Shown here one piece after another: positions 3,120 to 11,717 of a DNA stretch of 64,000 bases. How positions within the stretch are numbered: position 1 is the first letter of the stretch; each line of letters begins with the position of its first letter. The notes beneath the pieces are model-generated. The model saw only the letters and a list, made by a program, of their open reading frames with translations. It was not told the origin of the DNA and ran no database searches. A program made the translations under genes and the position numbers. Location of the stretch: positions 27,127 through 91,126 of the forward strand of contig JAFSNR010000025.1 in assembly GCA_017443345.1 (NCBI GenBank), given 5' to 3'. The DNA comes from Prevotella sp. (GTDB lineage Bacteria > Bacteroidota > Bacteroidia > Bacteroidales > Bacteroidaceae).

Positions 3120-3896
3120 ATGGCACTTACTTGTATGATTGTCGATGACGAGCCGTTGGCTGTGCGCCTGCTGGTTTCCTACGTGGAGAAGACACCCGAT
3201 TTGCAGCTGTTGGACTCGTTTACGGACTCTATCCGTGCCATCAATGCTGTCAAGGAACAGAAGCCTGACTTGCTGTTTCTCGACATCCAGATGCCCAATA
3301 TCGATGGTATGGAACTGGCGCATAGTCTGCCAGAAGAGACGCGTGTGGTCTTTACCACTGCTTTTAAGGAATACGCCTTCGAGAGCTATGAGGTGAATGC
3401 GCTCGACTTCCTGTTGAAGCCCATCCGTTACAGTAAGTTTCTCGCGGCAGTCGAAAAGGCGAGGGAATGGTTTACGGTTTACAGCTTACAGTTTACAGGT
3501 GTTTTGCAGACAAGCCCTTCAGATCCTTCAGAGCTATCATCTGTAAACAGTAAACCGTCAACAGTAAACAAAACGATTTTCCTCAAGGTCGATGGCGAGT
3601 GGCGCAGCGTGGTGATCGACAAGATTACCTACGTCAGCTGTATCAAGGACTACGTGATGTTTTATCTCGACGACGAGCCCAAGGCGCTGATCACCCACCT
3701 GACCATGAAGGCTGTAGAGCAGATGTTGCCAGCTGACAAGTTCCTGCGCATCCATCGTTCCTATATCGTTGCCACAGACAAGATCCGCAAGATCGACCGT
3801 AACGACTGCGTATACATCGGCAAGGAAATCATCCACGTGCCTGATGGCTATCTTCCTGCTTTCCGAGCCTTCCTCGAAAGCCGTTCCCCAAGTTAG
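3120..3896 (+). CDS. LytTR-family response regulator
   Basis: The protein has 258 residues. The receiver domain runs over residues 1-120, with acidic DDE (9-11) and phospho-acceptor Asp55 in FLDIQMP. The LytTR DNA-binding domain runs over about residues 150-250 (IFLKVDGEWRSV, FLRIHRSYIVA). The linker (about 118-150) is coded by two inverted heptamer arrays. The ATG at 3120 is preferred because it lies 2 nt after the kinase stop and starts the receiver fold directly; an earlier in-frame ATG at 3057 lies inside the kinase gene. It probably controls glucan-related genes, possibly through the direct repeat at 316-348. Confidence 0.9.
   Translation: MALTCMIVDDEPLAVRLLVSYVEKTPDLQLLDSFTDSIRAINAVKEQKPDLLFLDIQMPNIDGMELAHSLPEETRVVFTTAFKEYAFESYEVNALDFLLKPIRYSKFLAAVEKAREWFTVYSLQFTGVLQTSPSDPSELSSVNSKPSTVNKTIFLKVDGEWRSVVIDKITYVSCIKDYVMFYLDDEPKALITHLTMKAVEQMLPADKFLRIHRSYIVATDKIRKIDRNDCVYIGKEIIHVPDGYLPAFRAFLESRSPS
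3471..3498. repeat. heptamer array (4 units, TTTACAG type) inside the regulator gene
   Basis: TTTACGG, TTTACAG, CTTACAG and TTTACAG run in tandem. It is the inverted partner of the array at 3541, with 42 bp between them. Confidence 0.8.
3541..3569. repeat. heptamer array (4 units, CTGTAAA type) inside the regulator gene
   Basis: CTGTAAA, CAGTAAA, CCGTCAA and CAGTAAA run in tandem, in opposite orientation to the array at 3471. The pair could form a long imperfect stem. Confidence 0.8.
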
Positions 3897-4790: not shown

Positions 4791-4831
4791 TTTATTTCTC
4801 GCAGAGCCAGTATTCTGACAGGCCGTTCACT
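4791..4831. repeat. 41-bp direct repeat, left copy
   Basis: Bases 4791-4831 are identical to 7814-7854. The repeat is the last 13 codons plus stop of the primase-helicase gene at 7815. After a single mismatch three more bases agree. The two copies bound a 3-kb segment with the ATPase/RloB pair. Confidence 0.9.
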
Positions 4832-5208
4832 TCGCTTACGCCATGATTGAACATATTGACATAGTTTAGGTTCTTCATCATCTCTGCTACAACGCTATTG
4901 CGGTAGTCGTTCACATGTGGGAAGTTCTCTGGACGGGCCTGTCCATAGAGACCGCCAGGGTTCATGATTTCTATATGATTGTCATACTGATATAGTCGAG
5001 TTGGCATGTTCGCTTGGTAATCACGATGCATCACAGCATTCATCATCAACTCACGCAGCACCTTACAGGGATAGTTTCGCACATCCTTTTCTCTCAGAAT
5101 GCTAATAGGAACAGGGCGTTTTGTTACGATACCATCACGGATAAAGTTCTCAAGATCAGGTAGCATCTTGTAAAGGCATCCTTCGAAACGTCTTTTCACG
5201 ATGCTCAT
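4792..5208 (-). pseudogene. fragment of a RecG-like/AlbA-type regulator fused to the primase 3' end
   Basis: The 138-residue frame contains VLRELMMNAVMHRDYQ, NHIEIMNPGGLYG and VVAEMMKNLNYVNMFN, the HATPase_c_4 half of the AlbA_2/RecG-like ATP-binding proteins. The N-terminal AlbA_2 DNA-binding half (about 200 residues) is missing, and the C-terminus is cut at the point where the family normally continues NRG. It is replaced in frame by VNGLSEYWLCEK, identical to the end of the primase-helicase at 7815. This is therefore a junction product at the 41-bp repeat, probably non-functional. Confidence 0.7.
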
Positions 5209-7108: not shown

Positions 7109-7324
7109 CAGCTTTAATTTTGTTTTAATGTCGTTTTGGATAAAAAAGTACATCTTTTATACCATATTTAACATAACTTATATCAAATTGGTATATAATA
7201 TTTGAAAAGTAGATCAACAAATATTTTCAAACTCGTTGAGCTACACGCTATTTTGTTGCGTTTTGTTATGTATTTGCCTATCGGTGTCATTTATCCTATT
7301 AGAAAGTAGCTCCGTGAATGGCTG

Positions 7325-7804
7325 TTAGGGATTCGCAAATGTAATCGGGCAGGTGTATTTCACTCTGACTGGCATACCAGCCTGGTGGCCTGGTGTCCAT
7401 TTGGGCATCGAGCTGATTACGCGCTTGGCTTCATCTTGAAACAGATTACCGTAGAGGTTGGTTAGTTCCAGTTCGCTCATACCCGACTTTTCGAGCAATT
7501 TCCTCTTGTTCTTAAAGTGTACCAACGACTGCACTGGCTGAACGTGACTGATTGTCCCGTCAGCTTCTACTACAAAAGTAGTAATCACTCTACCTTCAAC
7601 GCCATTCTTTTTGGCCTCTTTGGGATATTTAAGATGGAATCCGATATATCGCGCCAGGTCATTCATGCCACTTCTGAACTGTGGTAATCTATCTCCTTTG
7701 CCAGTCAAAACTATCGGATCCACGCAGGTCGAATCTTGCACTACCTGCGCTTTTAAGCCTATGCTCAGTATCGCGAGCAAAGTTGTTATGATCGTTTTTT
7801 TCAT
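7325..7804 (-). CDS. exported protein with TonB C-terminal domain
   Basis: The protein has 159 residues with a signal peptide (MKKTIITTLLAILSIGLKAQ). The mature part has YPKEAKKNGVEGRVITTFVVEADGTISHVQPVQS, followed by a long helix and MPKWTPGHQAGMPVRVKYTCPI. This is the TonB_C fold as it occurs in Bacteroidota energy-transducer-like proteins. It lacks a proline-rich spacer and a membrane anchor, so it is more likely a soluble periplasmic paralogue than a working TonB. It lies just downstream of the primase gene's upstream neighbour and inside the segment bounded by the 41-bp repeats. Confidence 0.75.
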   Translation of the reverse strand: MKKTIITTLLAILSIGLKAQVVQDSTCVDPIVLTGKGDRLPQFRSGMNDLARYIGFHLKYPKEAKKNGVEGRVITTFVVEADGTISHVQPVQSLVHFKNKRKLLEKSGMSELELTNLYGNLFQDEAKRVISSMPKWTPGHQAGMPVRVKYTCPITFANP

Positions 7805-7813
7805 ATTCTCTTT

Positions 7814-7854
7814 TTTATTTCTCGCAGAGCCAGTATTCTGACAGGCCGTTCACT
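7814..7854. repeat. 41-bp direct repeat, right copy (native 3' end of the primase gene)
   Basis: Identical to 4791-4831. Here the sequence is in its natural place as the last 13 codons and stop (7815-7817) of the primase-helicase gene, so this copy is the probable source. Confidence 0.9.
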
Positions 7855-9938
7855 ACGCGATGCTTGAAGTTGAAACGGTAGTTGTTCATGGCCCTACCCA
7901 GTTTGTTTGGTGTTGTCTTTTCGGCATCGAAATAGGCATATCGTGAGGCGAACAGATTCAGTATGTCGCCTGTTCCCCACCAGCGTCCCTCACCATCTTT
8001 GGGCTTGCGGAAAGTCTCAGCAATCATCTCCTCCAGTGGAACGATGCGCTGATAAGGTTCGTTCTCCTTCATCAACTCAGCGATTTCGGCATCGTCGAGC
8101 CAGAAACGTTCGTTCTTGCTTATCAAGTCGAGCACTTGGGCGAAGAGCTGACGGTGGTTGATGTTGTCCGTATAGTCGATGTTCTTGCCGTTGGGGATGC
8201 CCACGCAGACGAAACGACGCGAACCAGTGGGATCGACAAGAGGCTGCTTCTGGTTAGTGGTGCCAATGAACGAGGTATAGCGACGATACTGCTTGATGGT
8301 CTTACCATAAGGAGGACGGAACTTGACGTCGCTCGACGACAGCAGGTATTTGAGTACGATCTGCTGAGAGTTGGTCGTCTTGTCGAACTCGTCGATATTG
8401 ATGAGGGCGAAGCTTGTCAGTGCGATGTTCAGGTCGAACTCGTTCTTGAAGTTCAGCTTGTCGTTGTAGTAGTCGCGCAGTTCCTCAGGCAATAGAATCT
8501 TACAGAAACGCGTCTTTCCGCAACCTTGACGACCTATGAGTAACGGTGTTAAGGCATTGCCAGTCAGCTGCTTATCGCTTTCTTGCCATTGTCTGACCAT
8601 ACCGATGAGCCAGTATCGCAGGTACTTTTCCCAATGGGGCTGGTCAGTTGGAACTCTTGCTGCGAGGTCCTTGATATAGTCGTGGCCATCCCAAGGCTGG
8701 AGATCCTTGAGCCAGGTATTTACTGGGTCATACTGCTCGATACGGGTGGAGTCGATAAAACGATTCACATCCTGATCCCACGACTTCAGGCCTTGCTCTC
8801 GAGCCTCGATGGTCATGTCGTTACGTACCTCGATGGTCAATGGCTTAAACGTCTGGTCCTCAGAGTATTTCATGCGATATTCAGCCACTCCCGTCATCAG
8901 GTTCTTGCGCATGTCGTAGTTCGAAGTGAGGAAGATCTCTGTGCGCATCGTCTGCAGCGTTTCCTGTGGCACGCTCTTCAGAGGCTTCATCTTGTGCTTC
9001 TTCTGATAGTCCTCCATCAGGGTTATCTCATAGGTGGTTGAGAATACGCTCTTCACAAGCTCAGGATCGTTGTGGAACAAAGGATGTTCGAGTGTCATCC
9101 CTTGGGCATGCGAGAGGGGAATGCCTTGCTCGAGTGACTTGCGTGCTATCTGCTGCAGCATCTGCATCTGGCGATCCTCGTCGGGCAGAACATGGTAGCT
9201 GCCCAGCACCTCGCGAAGGATGAAGACCCAGTTGAAGTGATAGGTCCGTTTAATGGTTCGTCCTGGCATCAGCATGCTGCTTTCCCACGAGATGGACGCA
9301 GGCTCTTCCTCTTTGTGTACCTTGGCATCGGCCTTGAAGGCGCGTGCATCGGGATTGAAGTACATCTCTGGATCGGCACTGATATAGACAGCTCGCTCCA
9401 GACGAGGCTCCAGGTATTCGATGTCCAGACCAAACTGGTTCTGATAAGCCCTGCGGGCTGTATTATATAAATTAAGGTGGAACTGCCTGATCTCCTCCTC
9501 GTTTTCAGGCAAGTCTTTCTCCTCAAACATCTCGCCTCGGCAAACGATTTTCACACTCATGCCTGATGCTCCAAGGAATGCCATCACCGTCTCGTCCATC
9601 CTCGAAGCCAGAGTCCTGATCTTCACGGCTTCTTCGTAAGTCTTCAGGCCATTGACCTCGATGACTACCAAGGCATTGTATCTCAGGAATCTGATGCCTC
9701 CTTTGTACTTGTCGCACTCAGCAGAGAAGATGATTCTGGGCAATCCGATGACGTGCTCGCCATCATAGACGATCTGACCATCATCCAAACGTTTAGGCTT
9801 GAAGAACTGATAGTTCAGTCGCAGGTTGAAAACGGACTGTTCGTTAGGGTTCTTTCGAATCGTATCTGCCAGTTCCGACAGCTCCATGCGGTTCATCACC
9901 TGATTCTTGCGTGCGAATTTGATGATTGTTACTTTCAT
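7815..9938 (-). CDS. VirE/BT4734-type primase-helicase
   Basis: The protein has 707 residues. The N-terminal third (to about residue 200, with GIRFLRYNALVVIEVNGL) resembles the BT4734/BF3469 primase-like domain. The middle has the VirE-type AAA helicase with Walker A GRQGCGKT (469-476), NIDEFDKT as Walker B and FIGTTN as sensor 1. The C-terminus resembles DUF3874. Such proteins are common in Bacteroidales mobile elements and are thought to prime or unwind DNA. The ATG at 9938 is used because the promoter (9975-10006) starts the RNA near 9968. The iteron/palindrome block lies directly upstream. Confidence 0.85.
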   Translation of the reverse strand: MKVTIIKFARKNQVMNRMELSELADTIRKNPNEQSVFNLRLNYQFFKPKRLDDGQIVYDGEHVIGLPRIIFSAECDKYKGGIRFLRYNALVVIEVNGLKTYEEAVKIRTLASRMDETVMAFLGASGMSVKIVCRGEMFEEKDLPENEEEIRQFHLNLYNTARRAYQNQFGLDIEYLEPRLERAVYISADPEMYFNPDARAFKADAKVHKEEEPASISWESSMLMPGRTIKRTYHFNWVFILREVLGSYHVLPDEDRQMQMLQQIARKSLEQGIPLSHAQGMTLEHPLFHNDPELVKSVFSTTYEITLMEDYQKKHKMKPLKSVPQETLQTMRTEIFLTSNYDMRKNLMTGVAEYRMKYSEDQTFKPLTIEVRNDMTIEAREQGLKSWDQDVNRFIDSTRIEQYDPVNTWLKDLQPWDGHDYIKDLAARVPTDQPHWEKYLRYWLIGMVRQWQESDKQLTGNALTPLLIGRQGCGKTRFCKILLPEELRDYYNDKLNFKNEFDLNIALTSFALINIDEFDKTTNSQQIVLKYLLSSSDVKFRPPYGKTIKQYRRYTSFIGTTNQKQPLVDPTGSRRFVCVGIPNGKNIDYTDNINHRQLFAQVLDLISKNERFWLDDAEIAELMKENEPYQRIVPLEEMIAETFRKPKDGEGRWWGTGDILNLFASRYAYFDAEKTTPNKLGRAMNNYRFNFKHRVVNGLSEYWLCEK

Positions 9939-10006: not shown

Positions 10007-10120
10007 TTTTGGCAGATATTTTTGCTCAAATTTCTGTGTCAAAGATGTTCATTTTGCTTTTTAATGCTACTAAAATATGGTTAATTAGCTGATTAATAGC
10101 TATATACGCTAAATCTTAAT

Positions 10121-10179
10121 CCTACTTTATTCCTGCTATATCTCTACTTTATTACTACTATATTACTACTGAATACTAC
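10121..10179 (-). repeat. left iteron array, 11-bp units
   Basis: Read on the minus strand, units GTAGTATTCA (10 bp), GTAGTAATATA, GTAGTAATAAA, GTAGAGATATA and GCAGGAATAAA are followed by a half unit GTAGG. CTAC cores on the plus strand end at 10125, 10136, 10147, 10158, 10169 and 10179, so the period is 11, 11, 11, 11, 10 bp. The unit matches that of the right array at 10481. Confidence 0.8.
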
Positions 10180-10300
10180 GCTGATTCCACTTCGAAGCTA
10201 CGTTTCTAGCTATTCCTTACCTGCTTTTGGACTGTTGCCTCCCTACCTAACCCATTCATTAATACGAGCTCGCAAGATTTTATATACTACCTTCTTTTTG

Positions 10301-10316
10301 AATTCTCTAGAGAATT
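10301..10316. repeat. 16-bp perfect palindrome
   Basis: AATTCTCTAGAGAATT is its own reverse complement. The same 16 bp form the centre of the palindrome at 10360-10387; the two centres are 65 bp apart. Confidence 0.85.
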
Positions 10317-10323
10317 GCACGAT

Positions 10324-10335
10324 AACCCTAGGGTT
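10324..10335. repeat. 12-bp perfect palindrome between the two copies
   Basis: AACCCTAGGGTT. A further 6-bp palindrome TTCGAA follows at 10341-10346. Confidence 0.8.
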
Positions 10336-10359
10336 AAGTCTTCGAAAGGTACGGGTAAA

Positions 10360-10387
10360 CTCTCCAATTCTCTAGAGAATTGGAGAG
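10360..10387. repeat. 28-bp perfect palindrome
   Basis: The arm CTCTCCAATTCTCT (10360-10373) is followed without a loop by its exact reverse complement (10374-10387). It contains the 16-bp core seen at 10301. Confidence 0.85.
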
Positions 10388-10480
10388 CAAAGTCTATGTT
10401 TGAATCTTTCTTCTCCGTAGTTCTATCTGCTCTATCTCGCCTATCGAATGTAACGATGTCTTGTGTTATTGCCATATTTG

Positions 10481-10535
10481 GTAGAAATATAGTAGGAATA
10501 TAGTAGGACTAATATAGAATTATTGTAGGATTATA
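10481..10535 (+). repeat. right iteron array, 11-bp units
   Basis: Five tandem units are seen: GTAGAAATATA, GTAGGAATATA, GTAGGACTAAT, ATAGAATTATT and GTAGGATTATA, starting at 10481, 10492, 10503, 10514 and 10525. It faces the left array in inverted orientation. The whole stretch 9983-10673 holds no credible gene; the short frames in it cross the palindromes and arrays. Confidence 0.8.
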
Positions 10536-10673
10536 AAACTTTGTAAATCTTTATATGCCAAATAGATAACATATATTTAGTAGTATTAAAACATTTAATA
10601 ATATCTTTCATTTGTTTTTGATATATTATAAAGAGTTACATGTCGTTTAAAAGCTTAAAAATATGCATATATA

Positions 10674-10725: not shown

Positions 10726-11064
10726 ATGATGCAAAAGCAAGAGATAAAACCATATCTGATAGAGCGGCTAAAACAGGAGAATGCCTTTTGGTCGTATAAG
10801 GTAGATGCCATCAAGGATGTACCAGATGATATCTTGGTGGAATTGGTAATGCTGCATCTTGATATGGACGATATTGACAGGCTCTTCGAGATTTATTCAC
10901 ATAAGTTTATTAAGAAAGCTTGGATTGAGAATGTTGTGCCTTTAGGCGATCGCTATTACGTTCTTAATAAATTCTTTGCATGGTACTATTTCCAGATGAA
11001 GAAACCAGGGGCTTATGTGAAATCTATGGAAACTCGCCAACTAAATAAAAGGATGGTTGCATGA
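10726..11064 (+). CDS. partner (probable antitoxin) of the AbiEii-like protein
   Basis: The protein has 112 residues starting MMQKQEIKPYLIERLKQENAFWSY, nearly all helix, with DVPDDILVELVMLHLDMDDIDRLFEIY and a basic C-terminus. It resembles the DUF6922-type proteins encoded upstream of nucleotidyltransferase toxins in Bacteroidales. The last codons overlap the next gene by 4 nt (ATGA), so the two are co-translated. The start is set by the promoter at 10674-10705. It takes the antitoxin position of AbiEi, but I see no winged-helix signature, so DNA binding is not shown. Confidence 0.65.
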   Translation: MMQKQEIKPYLIERLKQENAFWSYKVDAIKDVPDDILVELVMLHLDMDDIDRLFEIYSHKFIKKAWIENVVPLGDRYYVLNKFFAWYYFQMKKPGAYVKSMETRQLNKRMVA

Positions 11065-11717
11065 TGAACGGATTAGCACCTCAGACTTCTGAGATTTTTG
11101 AACGAATCACTCGTTTGGAATGTATAAAGCCTTTTGTTTTGGTAGGAGGAACTGCATTGAGTTTGCAGTTGAATAAGCGCCAGAGCGAAGACTTGGATTT
11201 TATGTGCTGGAAGAAGTCTGCAAAGGACAAACTGGAAATACCAATATCTGCGATAAAGCACGAATTAGAATCTATAGGCCATATAGACTCGATGGATATT
11301 GGGAGCTTCAGTTTCGTGAAGTTTGTAGTAGAGGGCGTGAAGTTGTCATTCTATGCTGCTCCAAGGAAGCGGATTCCTTCTATGCAGGTTGTGCCTTTTG
11401 CGAACAATTTGCAGTTGGCTGATATCACGTCAATAGGCGCAATGAAGATGGAGGCAATGCTTCGTCGCAGCAAATTCCGTGATTATTATGACATCTATAC
11501 CATATTGAAGGAAGGCGTTGATATTCAGACAATGATTGAAATGGCATTGGAACACTCCGAGCATCTTCTTAAAAGGAAAAATCTATTAGCGTTCTTATGT
11601 GATGGAGATCGATTCAGAAAGGATAAGGCTTTTATGCAACTTAATCCCATCTACGATGTCAGCCCCTACGACATTCAGGAGTATATTAAGCAGAAATTGC
11701 TGGAGAAAAAGGCATAA
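11061..11717 (+). CDS. AbiEii/AbiGii-type nucleotidyltransferase toxin
   Basis: The protein has 218 residues. LVGGTALSLQL (27-37) followed by RQSEDLDF (40-47) is the first motif of the DNA polymerase beta-type nucleotidyltransferases in the AbiEii family. KFRDYYDIYTIL near residue 150 matches their later conserved Lys/Asp region. Members are toxins of type IV-like systems and some give abortive phage infection; known relatives modify tRNA 3' ends. The gene overlaps its partner by 4 nt. It is intact by length and motifs. Being in an accessory block with a primase-helicase fits a mobile or defence locus. Confidence 0.8.
   Translation: MMNGLAPQTSEIFERITRLECIKPFVLVGGTALSLQLNKRQSEDLDFMCWKKSAKDKLEIPISAIKHELESIGHIDSMDIGSFSFVKFVVEGVKLSFYAAPRKRIPSMQVVPFANNLQLADITSIGAMKMEAMLRRSKFRDYYDIYTILKEGVDIQTMIEMALEHSEHLLKRKNLLAFLCDGDRFRKDKAFMQLNPIYDVSPYDIQEYIKQKLLEKKA

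Follow-up and report, generated by a model that had tools for sequence, protein, structure and literature searches.

The stretch of DNA analysed here, referred to as the window, comprises 64,000 nucleotides of a Prevotella sp. genome (assembly GCA_017443345.1, contig JAFSNR010000025.1). Within it, a non-coding block lies 5' of a gene for a VirE/BT4734 primase-helicase (VirE hereafter). In this block, inverted arrays of an 11-bp unit flank a core that holds two copies of the palindrome AATTCTCTAGAGAATT, and the whole is called the module. Its features are listed in Table 1.

Table 1. Module features and adjoining genes, in positions of the window
Feature	Position	Strand	Remarks
Left inner array	about 10115-10179	-	about 5-6 units of 11 bp, GTAGKAATAWA
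Right inner array	10481-10535	+	five 11-bp units; unit 4 degenerate (ATAG...)
Palindrome AATTCTCTAGAGAATT, copy 1	10301-10316	
Perfect 28-bp palindrome	10360-10387		encloses AATTCTCTAGAGAATT copy 2 at 10366-10381
AACCCTAGGGTT	10324-10335		within core, between the two AATTCTCTAGAGAATT copies
Outer left unit GTAGCATTAAA	10070-10060	-	start-to-start 55 bp (5 x 11) beyond last inner unit
Outer right unit GTAGTATTAAA	10580-10590	+	start-to-start 55 bp (5 x 11) past last inner unit
virE/BT4734 gene, 707 aa	7815-9938	-	read away from module; putative reader of units
112-aa gene without Pfam match and AbiEii nucleotidyltransferase	10726-11717	+	probable cargo

All elements named in the earlier note on this DNA, namely the inverted 11-bp arrays, the two copies of AATTCTCTAGAGAATT, the 28-bp perfect palindrome and AACCCTAGGGTT, are present; the outer units GTAGTATTAAA and GTAGCATTAAA had been missed. 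These outer units, whose 55-bp distances were counted by hand, belong to an inverted pair at 10059-10074 and 10576-10591, and offsets of 54, 55, 65 or 66 bp beyond the previous unit recur among 41 related modules. A two-unit pattern with up to 3 mismatches has 6 matches in the window, whereas 100 shuffles average 0.00. Both arrays and palindromes are genuine and far beyond what chance would give. The GC content across the block is 0.27-0.41 (0.37-0.41 between the arrays), and its minimum of 0.18-0.19 falls at 10500-10650, outside the right array and not in the centre. The coding flanks reach 0.47-0.50 on the left and only 0.34-0.42 on the right. By eye, AACCCTAGGGTT was not seen again in the other listed cores, the interiors of which differ.

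The adjacent VirE meets both domains of the BT4734-like family with a VirE/VapE helicase domain. Its scores against Pfam BT4734-like_N and VapE-like_dom are 128.9 and 114.9 bits (in the order in which the domains are named), above the gathering scores of 22.4 and 25. The sole PDB sequence match of its profile, in the helicase part, is PriRep1 (7pds), a protein of a staphylococcal island; this match is a likeness to phage-inducible islands. The N-terminus resembles primases, and a Foldseek search with a model of it gave nothing at E 0.001 or better. RSF1010 RepB' primase is different, with 8% identity; it works together with distinct RepA and RepC proteins at a single-strand initiation site. 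A published paper (PMC5862659), in the part available, lists the BT4734-like archaeo-eukaryotic primases and predicts a helicase function in mobile elements for VirE ATPases; that part describes no origin, iteron or specificity domain for the family.

The same architecture is found elsewhere in the source genome (4.16 Mb, 204 contigs). Two further full-length close virE genes, whose products are 67% and 65% identical to the window VirE, have inverted 11-bp arrays upstream, with different units (approximately ATGTCGGTTTT and ATGTAGGCTTT) that flank two palindrome copies; at the locus on contig C175, one of the two copies carries one change. This genome has 16 VirE matches, some of them pieces of one gene, and 9 cover residues 304 onward only. 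The palindrome pair was found at five places. Single AATTCTCTAGAGAATT sites with up to 1 mismatch number 12, and chance palindromes were rejected because all 12 fall in six 65-bp pairs. The two-unit pattern of the window matches the window locus and one 3-mismatch site on contig C95, with 3 matches for a reversed control; among 99 relatives it gave a single 2-mismatch match (genome G051). Being private to the window locus, the window unit was rejected as the family signature, which is the palindrome pair. Of the recurrence in relatives that the earlier note had proposed as a check, the architecture is indeed found upstream of virE genes, and the unit is not.

Paired AATTCTCTAGAGAATT copies exist in 38 of 299 genomes of the genus (the source genome included), and close VirE relatives in 45. 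What stays constant in the family is the pair of AATTCTCTAGAGAATT copies, whose centres are separated by 65-66 bp among the places listed; inverted 11-bp arrays of variable unit mostly flank them. In a sample of 251 genomes of the taxonomic family, 4 match the palindrome pair, 3 of them within the genus (the source genome, G458 with 13 and G565 with 2). The fourth, G528, was rejected as a pair outside the genus, as it carries a different tandem repeat. Within the samples searched, the module family is seen in one genus only, in which the named relatives are rumen Prevotella and Xylanibacter ruminicola. Genome G458 (L307-L314) has 13 cores and no close virE; among 8 sampled, the 4 inspected show GGGTGCCAC-like repeats, not 11-mer arrays.

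The relation between unit and protein was examined in 80 named loci, mostly rumen Prevotella records with some of Xylanibacter ruminicola. Of these, 76 extend 500 bp or more upstream: two perfect palindromes are present in 42, two with up to 4 mismatches in total in 7, and neither in 27; L253 and L277 carry an identical change in both copies. Units could be derived for 41 virE-linked modules, the window included. Correlation with the unit is stronger for VirE residues 1-71 (r 0.62) than for residues 91-707 (r 0.44), and the partial correlations are 0.49 (0 of 999 permutations) and -0.10 (950 of 999 permutations), respectively. In a sliding scan, the partial values were also raised at residues 481-560, a nearly invariant stretch. 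Unit matches number 599 in the expected orientation versus 73 in the opposite one, a count that is descriptive only, as the unit consensus was drawn from the same arrays; the spacing is 11 in 235 cases, with 54, 55, 65 and 66 next among the larger ones. In several relatives (e.g. G113:C51, G122:C32 and G040:C29), the match to the window VirE (84-86%) begins only at residue ~132-142, which suggests that the N-terminal part is exchangeable between relatives.

The block is best read, with a probability of roughly 0.6, as a module that is recognised by the adjacent VirE/BT4734 protein, a Pri-Rep-like primase-helicase, and that probably serves as its replication origin. Recognition of the 11-bp unit would fall to the N-terminal ~70 residues of VirE, and VirE copies would bind in phase on both arrays. 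Once bound, VirE would bring the VapE-type helicase and the primase onto the central core between the palindromes, where replication may begin. The architecture stays constant as the unit diversifies with VirE; this would be expected if every lineage maintained an initiator-origin pair of its own. The origin-like anatomy beside a primase-helicase gene, proposed in the earlier note, is supported by both Pfam domains, the 7pds match, the two paralogous loci and the covariation with the N-terminus.

The count of cores drew on 74 regions, which represent 34 of the 38 genomes through their listed cores; G145, G171, G261, G307 and some further cores of other genomes were left out. With the window and one IMG/VR contig the total is 78 cores, L093 giving an overlapping tandem pair. 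A VirE match lies within 800 bp of 32 cores, including some fragments or distant cases (L132, L144, L084, L092). The other 46 have no such match, and at least 4 of them (L095, L098, L099, L122) lie ~0.6 kb or less from a contig end, where virE could be cut off. Arrays exceed the background maximum on both sides in 48 of the 77 cores with both sides measurable, on one side in 15 and on neither in 14 (background from 228 random segments of the same loci: median 0.39, maximum 0.67).

Wherever a core adjoins virE (32 cases), the gene points away from it; 31 of 72 loci also have a divergent HU gene that begins no more than 1.5 kb away. Both features would also suit a bidirectional operator-promoter, by which VirE (and HU) autoregulates divergent virE and HU or cargo genes, while isolated modules would be regulon members or stray operators; initiators often autoregulate. 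Against this, seven isolated cores (L088, L112, L115, L121, L125, L126, L142) are placed by a simple, rough open reading frame (ORF) caller between genes that both point toward the core, where no promoter is needed. Moreover, a core of paired palindromes at fixed spacing with in-phase outer units is, in our judgement, elaborate for an operator. Because of these seven cores and the 46 without nearby virE, the 'master operator' that the earlier note had offered as a second option becomes less likely as the main role, and regulation of this kind is regarded as an unlikely explanation of the modules.

The isolated modules are intergenic (as placed by the same ORF caller), gene-free and present in several copies, also in genomes without a close virE. 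Genome G309 has three isolated cores besides one adjacent to virE. Within one genome they are alike over ~0.5-0.8 kb, after which the flanks diverge (e.g. three in G178, two in G138); the three G178 copies are identical across more than 300 aligned columns of the centre, and two of them share ~1.5 kb overall. By eye from translations, their neighbours resemble parA, lrp, glycerate kinase, carB, fusA, ruvC and feoB. Arrays at many sites without a replication gene, which the earlier note had held to speak against its proposal, are thus found for the architecture and not for the exact unit. Under the origin reading, such chromosomal copies may be non-autonomous relatives recognised in trans, or relics. 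At L025, a second 11-bp array with another unit (approximately GAGGTAACAAA) adjoins an isolated module at ~1201-1260, and at L129 (G025:C19) an ORF beside one isolated module looks by eye like an insertion-sequence transposase.

Homologous gene-free copies with inverted ends and differing flanks, at intergenic sites beside housekeeping-like genes, also recall miniature inverted-repeat transposable elements (MITEs), and the modules fit the MITE size range of 50-1000 bp. The modules would then be non-autonomous repeats of some transposase, and virE loci would merely carry one. The BrickBuilt MITE of Porphyromonas gingivalis, also a member of the Bacteroidales, is likewise short and without genes, according to the available part of its description (PMC4596501); its inverted ends, which are insertion-sequence-like, enclose tandem units of 23 nt. 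The modules differ from it in that their unit covaries with a primase-helicase and that no transposase turned up for them. In particular, none with matching ends was observed, and no target-site duplication was made out in the copies inspected, though inverted outer units were seen. Neither the covariation of unit and VirE nor the co-occurrence of cores with close virE would be explained by an unrelated transposase, and this origin of the modules is considered improbable.

A third alternative is more improbable still. Isolated modules could be titration or copy-control sites, or domesticated host sites such as an auxiliary origin or an organising site, in agreement with their persistence where close virE is absent and with the parA, carB, lrp and fusA look-alikes that adjoin some of them. 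No consistent position across species was seen, however: the two lrp cases have the module on different sides of the gene, as do the two glycerate kinase cases. In one pair beside a binding-protein gene (G282, G178) the module is on the same side.

Units of isolated modules were compared with those of virE loci in the same genome. Of 33 isolated modules for which a unit was obtained, 18 share their genome with a virE-adjacent unit; 19 of the 78 rows had no unit above threshold and were dropped beforehand. The mean distance between an isolated unit and the virE unit of its own genome is 1.13, compared to 2.08 when permuted (4 of 9999). For 12 of the 18, 3 or fewer of 19 other genomes are as close; the remaining 6 fit poorly (5 or more), two of them possibly as artefacts (G025:C69 was assigned a different phase, and the virE locus of G128:C71 was among the dropped rows). 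In the source genome, no isolated module bears the window unit; those in which arrays are present (C1, C69) have a unit of the C175 type, and the core on C67 is without arrays. As isolated modules tend to share the unit of a virE locus in their genome, this can be read as a sign that they are acted on in trans.

Among known systems, phage-inducible chromosomal islands (SaPI, EcCI) are the closest in layout, with a gene for primase and initiator-helicase that adjoins two iteron sets around a central region. This Pri-Rep-ori arrangement is stated, in the available part of one paper (PMC6092414), to be common to no other known replicon. Several differences can be observed. In Gram-positive islands, as far as the sources available describe them, the origin lies 3' of the gene, whereas the module here is 5' of virE. 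The arrays here are moreover inverted 11-mers around a paired-palindrome core, and gene-free copies are dispersed. In addition, the module was not classed as a phage-inducible island, because in the window its centre is not where AT content is highest and no integrase was found among the genes examined (10 window proteins and 30 neighbours of seven related loci, all nearby genes). No description of these modules was found in the part of the literature searched.

The excisable integrated element envisaged in the earlier note gains no support, as no integrase was found among the neighbours examined and no circular form was seen. No exact insertion boundary was found. In 12 relatives' regions around folE/B3-4, gene order is kept on one side in G020 only, and the others hold no window genes except B3/4 and one weak TonB match. 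At the P. ruminicola virE locus, no empty site was seen: 20 relatives carry the flanking esterase gene, and the other flank lies within ~1.5 kb in 0 of the 13 checked. The modules may nevertheless be mobile. Tentatively, and with considerably more doubt than the origin function itself, they can be regarded as a new minimal mobile replicon, in which a primase-helicase, often with divergent HU, is joined to a symmetric origin without an integrase. The origin alone would spread as gene-free copies served in trans, with many private specificities set by the N-terminal 70 residues of the primase.

Beyond the close relatives, a wider virE set (42-56% identity) was surveyed, for which 16 of 20 sampled regions plus L296 and L301 were scanned and L295 and L302 viewed by eye; L321, L325, L331 and L334 were too short. 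In L335 and L336, arrays above the background maximum accompany a palindrome on both sides, and L329 has them on one side. Paired repeats around palindromes such as GGAACTGTCAGTTCC can also be recognised by eye in L295, L324 and L326. The remaining loci of this set have no arrays by the background-maximum test. VirE matches occur in 87 of 72,556 plasmid records, all below 60% identity. Two Bacteroides plasmid loci and six faecal viral BT4734 records have, by eye, in part other upstream repeats, not AATTCTCTAGAGAATT. Faecal viral records with full-length virE were rejected as circular forms, since the 6 checked of 7 covering at least 80% have no terminal repeats and differing upstream repeats. 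The only IMG/VR contig that carries a module has, by eye, chromosomal-looking genes at its end. A Bacteroides plasmid record (L151, 749-1702) has an annotated site-specific integrase ~4 kb from a divergent HU/BT4734 pair.

On the other side of the module, the 112-aa gene and AbiEii are probable cargo and occupy the side that bears a divergent HU gene in 31 of 72 related loci. By eye, a close homologue of the 112-aa gene (window 10726-11064) adjoins the isolated module L096 (G143:C35), which has a different unit, so similar cargo meets different modules. The final 45 bp of virE (7814-7858) recur 3 kb downstream at 4791-4835 with 97.8% identity, and TonB_C, AAA_21, RloB and a RecG-C-like fragment lie between. 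Insertion of cargo at the 3' end of virE was rejected as a general rule, as the repeat is present in 0 of 67 related loci. At the C175 locus (L073), direct repeats occur at 938-1102, 2595-2759, 3520-3634 and 7234-7348; by eye, at least some of them resemble the HU gene's 3' end, repeated between small cargo genes. C-terminal-only HU fragments were seen in 2 of 80 related loci.

These findings imply that VirE/BT4734 genes, which are frequent and for which no described function was found in the literature searched, gain a likely target via covariation. The covariation also points to the part of VirE that reads the unit, and it yields a set of candidate orthogonal protein-DNA pairs. Should the modules be origins, the iteron layout reported as unique to phage-inducible islands would also exist in loci without a visible integrase, which scatter bare origins.
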